A DNA stretch of 64,000 bases, from NCBI GenBank assembly GCA_016841205.1, contig JAENZP010000001.1, positions 248,001-312,000 on the forward strand, given 5' to 3'. Below are positions 15,258 to 15,326 of this stretch, one piece after another. The stretch's first letter is position 1, and each line of letters starts with the position of its first letter. The position numbers and the translations under genes are program-made. The notes below the pieces were generated by a model. It saw only the letters and a list, made by a program, of their open reading frames with translations, searched no databases and had not been told where the DNA came from. Origin of the DNA: Desulfoscipio geothermicus. GTDB taxonomy: Bacteria; Bacillota; Desulfotomaculia; Desulfotomaculales; Desulfallaceae.

Positions 15258-15301
15258 ATAAAAAAGAGGCATCCACAGACCAAAATGGCTGTAAATGCCT
15301 C
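15258..15301 (-). terminator. Terminator immediately upstream of nifH
   Basis: GAGGCAT and ATGCCTC (stem 15266-15301, with an inner ACAG/CTGT helix) are followed on the minus strand by six or more T. It lies only about 17 bases before the nifH ribosome site, so readthrough must be actively permitted for expression. Confidence 0.8.
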
Positions 15302-15326
15302 AATGCATATTTTACTTCCGTGTAAA
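15295..15326 (-). promoter_or_regulatory. ANTAR-type antiterminator element, nifH leader
   Basis: On the minus strand two hairpins occur in series. P1 is TTTAC-ACGGAA-GTAAA (15311-15326) and P2 is ATGC-ATTGAG-GCAT (15295-15308). Both loops are six bases with A1 and G4, and loop-to-loop spacing is 11 bases. The 3' half of P2 (GAGGCAT) is also the 5' arm of the terminator at 15258-15301, so P2 and terminator exclude each other. This is the complete two-hexaloop architecture recognised by ANTAR-domain antiterminators, which hold P2 and let polymerase read into the genes. Confidence 0.7.

Follow-up and report, generated by a model that had tools for sequence, protein, structure and literature searches.

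The leader of the nitrogenase operon of Desulfoscipio geothermicus very probably consists of three ANTAR-controlled transcription attenuators placed in series. Within the window, by which we mean the whole analyzed stretch of 64,000 nucleotides, nifH (14408..15232, minus strand) is the first gene of an operon that continues with two P-II-like genes, nifD, nifK, and more nitrogenase-type genes. Its leader, observed directly, comprises three tandem modules on the same strand (15534-15477, 15430-15360, and 15326-15260), each made up of two hairpins, P1 and P2, and an intrinsic terminator that P2 overlaps in every case. A preliminary description had placed a single complete antiterminator before nifH; what it saw is instead the last of the three. 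All modules lie downstream of one promoter of the sigma-A type, TTGCAA-17-TATAAT (15548..15576, minus strand), which that description had also proposed and which is recognized from sequence only: the motif is present, and consensus matches are no commoner than in shuffles. Promoters of the form TTGC(A/G)N-17-TATAAT are also visible in the nifH leaders of three relatives (L005, L009, and L010).

In module 1, P1 reads GGTGC[GTTGCA]GTACC (15519..15534, minus strand like all features of this leader; loops in brackets) and P2 reads GGC[AAAGAT]GCC (15497..15508), both located with covariance model R1; the terminator, GCCGGCACTTATTGCCGGC-TTTT (GCCGGC...GCCGGC-TTTT; 15477..15499, -12.4 kcal/mol), has its 5′ arm in common with P2. 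Module 2, whose hairpins were both located with the model, has the P1 TGATAC[GTTGTA]GTATCA (15413..15430) and a P2, GGC[GATGGC]GCA (15390..15403), that has lost one pair here and is intact as GGC[GATGGC]GCC in relatives L004, L006, L008, and L010; its terminator is GATGGCGC...GCGCCATC-AATTTTTTT (15360..15399, -19.9 kcal/mol). Module 3 combines the P1 TTTAC[ACGGAA]GTAAA (15311..15326) with the P2 ATGC[ATTGAG]GCAT (15295..15308), and the two hexaloop hairpins described earlier are indeed found at 15326-15295, with 11 bases between the loops and 2 bases between the outer stems. The strong terminator said to overlap the second of them is likewise in place, GAGGCAT...ATGCCTC-TTTTTT (15260..15301, -22.7 kcal/mol, z -7.1), its 5′ arm overlapping both the loop and the 3′ arm of P2; the distance to the ribosome site GGGAGG (15246-15241), given earlier as about 17 bases, is 13 bases from the end of the U tract and 19 bases from that of the hairpin. 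If a hairpin is taken to be a six-base loop on a stem of three or more base pairs, modules 1 and 3 are complete and the P2 of module 2 is one pair short, a point against the ANTAR reading. The P1-P2 linker of modules 1 and 2 measures about 10 to 11 bases, that of module 3 only 2 to 4, and both length classes are found again in relatives, with short last-module linkers in L004, L005, L007, and L009. G4 is present in all six loops. The description of both loops as A1/G4 holds for module 3; over all modules, position 1 is A or G (R1/G4), with A1 also in the P2 of module 1 and G1 in the P1 of module 1 and in both loops of module 2.

Model R1 was built from 20 P1-P2 modules, drawn from the family plus L013 and including the window's own three, and the scores with which it returns the three modules of the leader (40.7 bits at 15534-15496, 40.0 at 15429-15390, and 28.8 at 15326-15295) are therefore high partly by construction; the next best site within the window scores 13.8 bits. 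Under strict criteria, two complete modules were found in the 330-base leader, and among 1500 dinucleotide shuffles of it one module arose in a single shuffle and two modules in none. nifH is present in 8 of the 16 family genomes, including the D. geothermicus genome analyzed, and each of the eight leaders has two or three terminators accompanied by R1/G4 hairpins, recognized by script or by eye. The conservation in close relatives on which the preliminary description had staked its reading was borne out, modules with paired loops being kept in 7/7 of the other nifH-bearing family genomes. Compensatory stem changes across the 20 modules give a covariation score of 0.287, compared with 0.119 in shuffles, none of 500 reaching the observed value. 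The closing C-G pair is invariant in both loops, as is G4, though G4 and R1 served as selection criteria for these modules. Where R1/G4 was not preselected, terminator-overlapping hexaloops carried it in 45 of 48 cases from ANTAR genomes and in neither of the two from genomes with no ANTAR gene. The modules of relatives have A or G at loop position 1 and almost always a purine at position 5. G1 occurs in 5 of the 17 P2 loops detected in the family, a point against the ANTAR reading in that A1 mattered for EutV binding. Tolerance of G1 fits the EutV-RNA structure, in which A1 makes no protein contact and G4 stacks on Tyr164 (PMC8934654).

The genome encodes exactly one ANTAR protein (L001, 82.3 bits), in agreement with the expectation that such a protein would be found. 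It has a Response_reg domain at residues 6-116 and an ANTAR domain at 135-187 and aligns over almost its full length with Rv1626 (1s8n) and EutV (6wsh). Most RNA-contact residues are retained (R142, K143, E146, K149, E160, M172, N173, and R175 in EutV numbering), with the substitutions Y164 to F, R168 to Q, and R177 to S, of which the last two weigh against the ANTAR reading. The gene lies between gdhA and glnA, in the order gdhA-ANTAR-glnA. At least one ANTAR gene occurs in each of the 16 family genomes, and a glutamine synthetase gene adjoins it at 14 of the 15 relatives' loci read.

Elements of the same kind are shared with other nitrogen genes. In the organism's own genome, matches to model R1 that have terminators by inspection precede three genes: the ANTAR gene, glnA, and a second gene resembling glnA; the genome-wide E-values of these matches are weak alone (0.02-0.9), and the modules before the ANTAR gene and glnA are found again across the family. 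The second glutamine synthetase-like gene (L108, C13:158826) has two ANTAR-type terminator modules upstream. Five further matches (L110, L111, L113, L116, and L117) were rejected as lying within or at the start of coding sequence without a terminator, and three (L114, L115, and L118) were judged to be chance. In the window itself, the amtB-glnK leader (2697-2953, plus strand) contains several R1/G4 hexaloop hairpins and two terminators. It begins with a promoter-like TTGACA-18-TATAAT (2697..2726), known by its letters alone, followed by a P2, GGC[AACGAT]GCC (2761-2772), with an overlapping terminator and no clear P1 (2761..2810), an element present also in relatives L150, L151, L153-L155, L157, and L163. 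Next come the hairpins ATCC[AACGTT]GGGT and ATAGGC[AGAGGA]GCCTAT (2822..2856), whose terminator looks degraded here and is present in L157, L158, and L163, and a further P2, AAGC[GAGGAC]GCTT, with an overlapping terminator (2904..2953). In relatives, the amtB leader contains as many as three terminators bearing R1/G4 hexaloops, and P1 is clear in several of them. Because modules stand before the ANTAR gene, two glutamine synthetase genes, amtB-glnK, and nifH, the regulon apparently extends from the uptake and assimilation of ammonium to nitrogenase and to the regulator itself.

From this arrangement we infer how the protein would bind, in which direction the switch would work, and that nitrogen would be its signal. 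Transcription would start constitutively at the sigma-A promoter. When active ANTAR protein is absent, each terminator would form and halt RNA polymerase, and three terminators in series would keep leakage very low. Nitrogen shortage would activate the single receiver-ANTAR protein, a dimer of which would bind both hexaloops, P1 and P2, in every module and stabilize P2, keeping the 3′ arm of P2 from the terminator, so that polymerase could read through all three terminators into nifH and the genes that follow it in the operon. This protein would also control its own gene, the two glutamine synthetase genes, and amtB-glnK. If leakage at each terminator is independent, leakage would multiply along the leader and the response to active ANTAR protein would be steep.

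Two other accounts of the leader leave the ANTAR protein out. The inverted repeats could be DNA sites of a repressor acting at initiation, with the terminators being ordinary ones, and a P1 such as GGTAC...GTACC, a near-perfect inverted repeat, could also be an operator. We nevertheless regard this as very improbable: the stems of P1 and P2 differ in sequence, yet both close on an R1/G4 six-base loop; P2 overlaps the terminator arm; the stems covary; and the repeats lie downstream of the promoter in a copy number equal to that of the terminators in the nifH leader. Tandem terminators would also suit any attenuation system, and the leader could answer to a small-molecule riboswitch, a T-box, or an RNA-binding protein other than ANTAR, an explanation to which we give almost no weight. 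A riboswitch or other known RNA was rejected on the ground that no Rfam family matches the nifH leader. Against this explanation as a whole, dual R1/G4 hexaloops come close to the published ANTAR target (PMC3369931), and a set of 73 nifH genomes shows modules in 29 of the 54 that have an ANTAR gene as opposed to 0/19 of those without one. A first comparison of 39 genomes gave p = 4.5e-5, a value to be taken with care given that the sample joined all leaders with clear modules to a chosen set without; in an independent set of 26 nifH genomes from Clostridiaceae, one nifH leader being read per genome, modules were seen in 2 of the 19 that have ANTAR and in none of the 7 that lack it, which alone is not significant. 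Comparison of the nifH leader with phage records gave no match.

Within the ANTAR reading, a separate question is what activates the protein. An unlinked histidine kinase might phosphorylate it, as EutW does EutV, and the receiver keeps the phosphoacceptor aspartate, the lysine, and a serine at the threonine site; moreover, the kinase search covered the HisKA_2 class. That search, however, found no HisKA_2 kinase in the genome, no kinase of any kind is evident adjoining the ANTAR gene at the locus, the acidic pair of the receiver reads D-S in this protein and D-A in most relatives, and one congener has D56 replaced by N. We therefore consider an unlinked kinase unlikely as opposed to protein contact, though less so than either account that dispenses with ANTAR. 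Since no HisKA_2 kinase was found in the genome and the pocket of the receiver is degraded, the regulator probably does not belong to an ordinary two-component pair. Of the earlier proposal that an ANTAR two-component or ligand-sensing protein switches nitrogenase at the RNA level, the ANTAR part is thus supported and an ordinary two-component pair is improbable. We infer an input other than a kinase, and our guess, from the gene neighborhood, is that either glutamine synthetase or a P-II protein contacts the regulator. In other Clostridia and in Negativicutes (L119-L148), loss of receiver pocket residues ranges from none to complete, and many receivers outside the family have lost most of the phosphorylation pocket.

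ANTAR control at nitrogenase genes was already predicted in 2012, and the D. geothermicus leader is a new, well-resolved case of it. Ramesh et al. 2012 predicted ANTAR RNAs upstream of nitrogenase genes in Pelobacter carbinolicus and, for Desulfotomaculum acetoxidans, 13 elements spread over six nitrogen-related units (PMC3369931). The leader resembles those predictions in its dual hexaloops with an overlapping terminator, its nitrogen genes, and several elements per unit; it differs in that, whereas they came from a genome-wide model, the leader is resolved here base by base into three modules in tandem, its loops begin with A or G, and only one ANTAR gene, linked to glnA, is present. Its likeness to the EutV/eutP leader of Enterococcus faecalis lies in a receiver-ANTAR protein, P1 and P2 hexaloops, a P2 that excludes the terminator, and most RNA-contact residues. 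EutV, in contrast, works with the kinase EutW and keeps its acidic pair complete, and eut terminators stand before different genes, whereas the nifH leader has three in one leader. All eut loops have A1, where the nifH leader has A1 or G1, and linkers in E. faecalis span 5 to 12 bases, shortening of the eutP linker to 3 bases reducing induction (PMC3369931); the 2- to 4-base linker of module 3 falls below this range and would count against the three-module ANTAR reading.

NasR at the nasF leader of Klebsiella and AmiR at the amiE leader of Pseudomonas similarly represent ANTAR antitermination of a nitrogen operon, but NasR senses nitrate via a NIT domain and AmiR senses amides via AmiC, whereas the D. 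geothermicus protein is a receiver-ANTAR. An experimental precedent in Geobacter, GnfR (Ueki and Lovley 2010), is cited in PMC8164766. This nitrogen-fixation response regulator of Geobacter sulfurreducens is reported to be an ANTAR protein that controls nitrogen-fixation genes and works with dedicated histidine kinases; the D. geothermicus gene has no such kinase linked. In Clostridium, NitR is glnA-linked. It is described as an antiterminator regulating ammonia assimilation, in which it is like the D. geothermicus regulator, and nifH is not reported there as a NitR target (PMC4676874).

Outside the family, nifH leaders of Acetobacterium, some Clostridium, Ruminiclostridium, and Negativicutes have one to three terminators with a single basal hexaloop each, for example AGAC[GATGAG]GTCT at the terminator base. 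Read over 400 bases upstream of nifH, such loci (L039, L055, L061, L026, L027, L037, L049, and others), all in ANTAR genomes, show one R-N-N-G-R-N hexaloop per terminator and no recognizable P1; when clostridial leaders outside the family were searched for an overlooked P1, only 3 in 30 modules gave one, although stems of just three base pairs were allowed. The element is not general in Clostridiaceae and is absent from most nifH genes there, since only 2 of 19 ANTAR-bearing genomes in the independent set have modules. The ANTAR domain of EutV binds a single stem-loop more poorly (PMC3369931), and the single-hexaloop leaders would therefore use a derived ANTAR protein or a P1 that escapes recognition. 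We tentatively suggest, at somewhat less than even chances, that nitrogen regulation in Clostridia relies on a derived ANTAR system, its regulators being orphan or glnA-linked proteins with decaying receivers that respond to protein contact and not to phosphorylation, and that in many lineages (Acetobacterium, some Clostridium, Ruminiclostridium, and Negativicutes) the target has been reduced to one R-N-N-G-R-N hexaloop at the base of each of one to three tandem terminators. If true, such a system would contradict the accepted two-hexaloop rule.

The comparative set points to a tolerance for G at loop position 1 and to the existence of targets with a single hexaloop, both of which bear on the current model of ANTAR recognition. 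To our knowledge, nitrogenase switching in anaerobic Firmicutes is poorly known relative to NifA/NifL systems. The proposed nifH switch would act on the elongation of transcripts that start at a constitutive-type promoter, three serial terminators giving tight shut-off, and one orphan RNA-binding protein apparently ties ammonium transport, glutamine synthetase, and nitrogenase together. An HMGL-like (homocitrate-synthase-type) gene (15715-16659, on the minus strand as is nifH) directly precedes the nifH promoter. Elsewhere in the window, two SAM riboswitches and one c-di-GMP-I riboswitch score above the Rfam gathering thresholds (23273-23385, plus strand; 27135-27244, plus strand; 26219-26317, minus strand).
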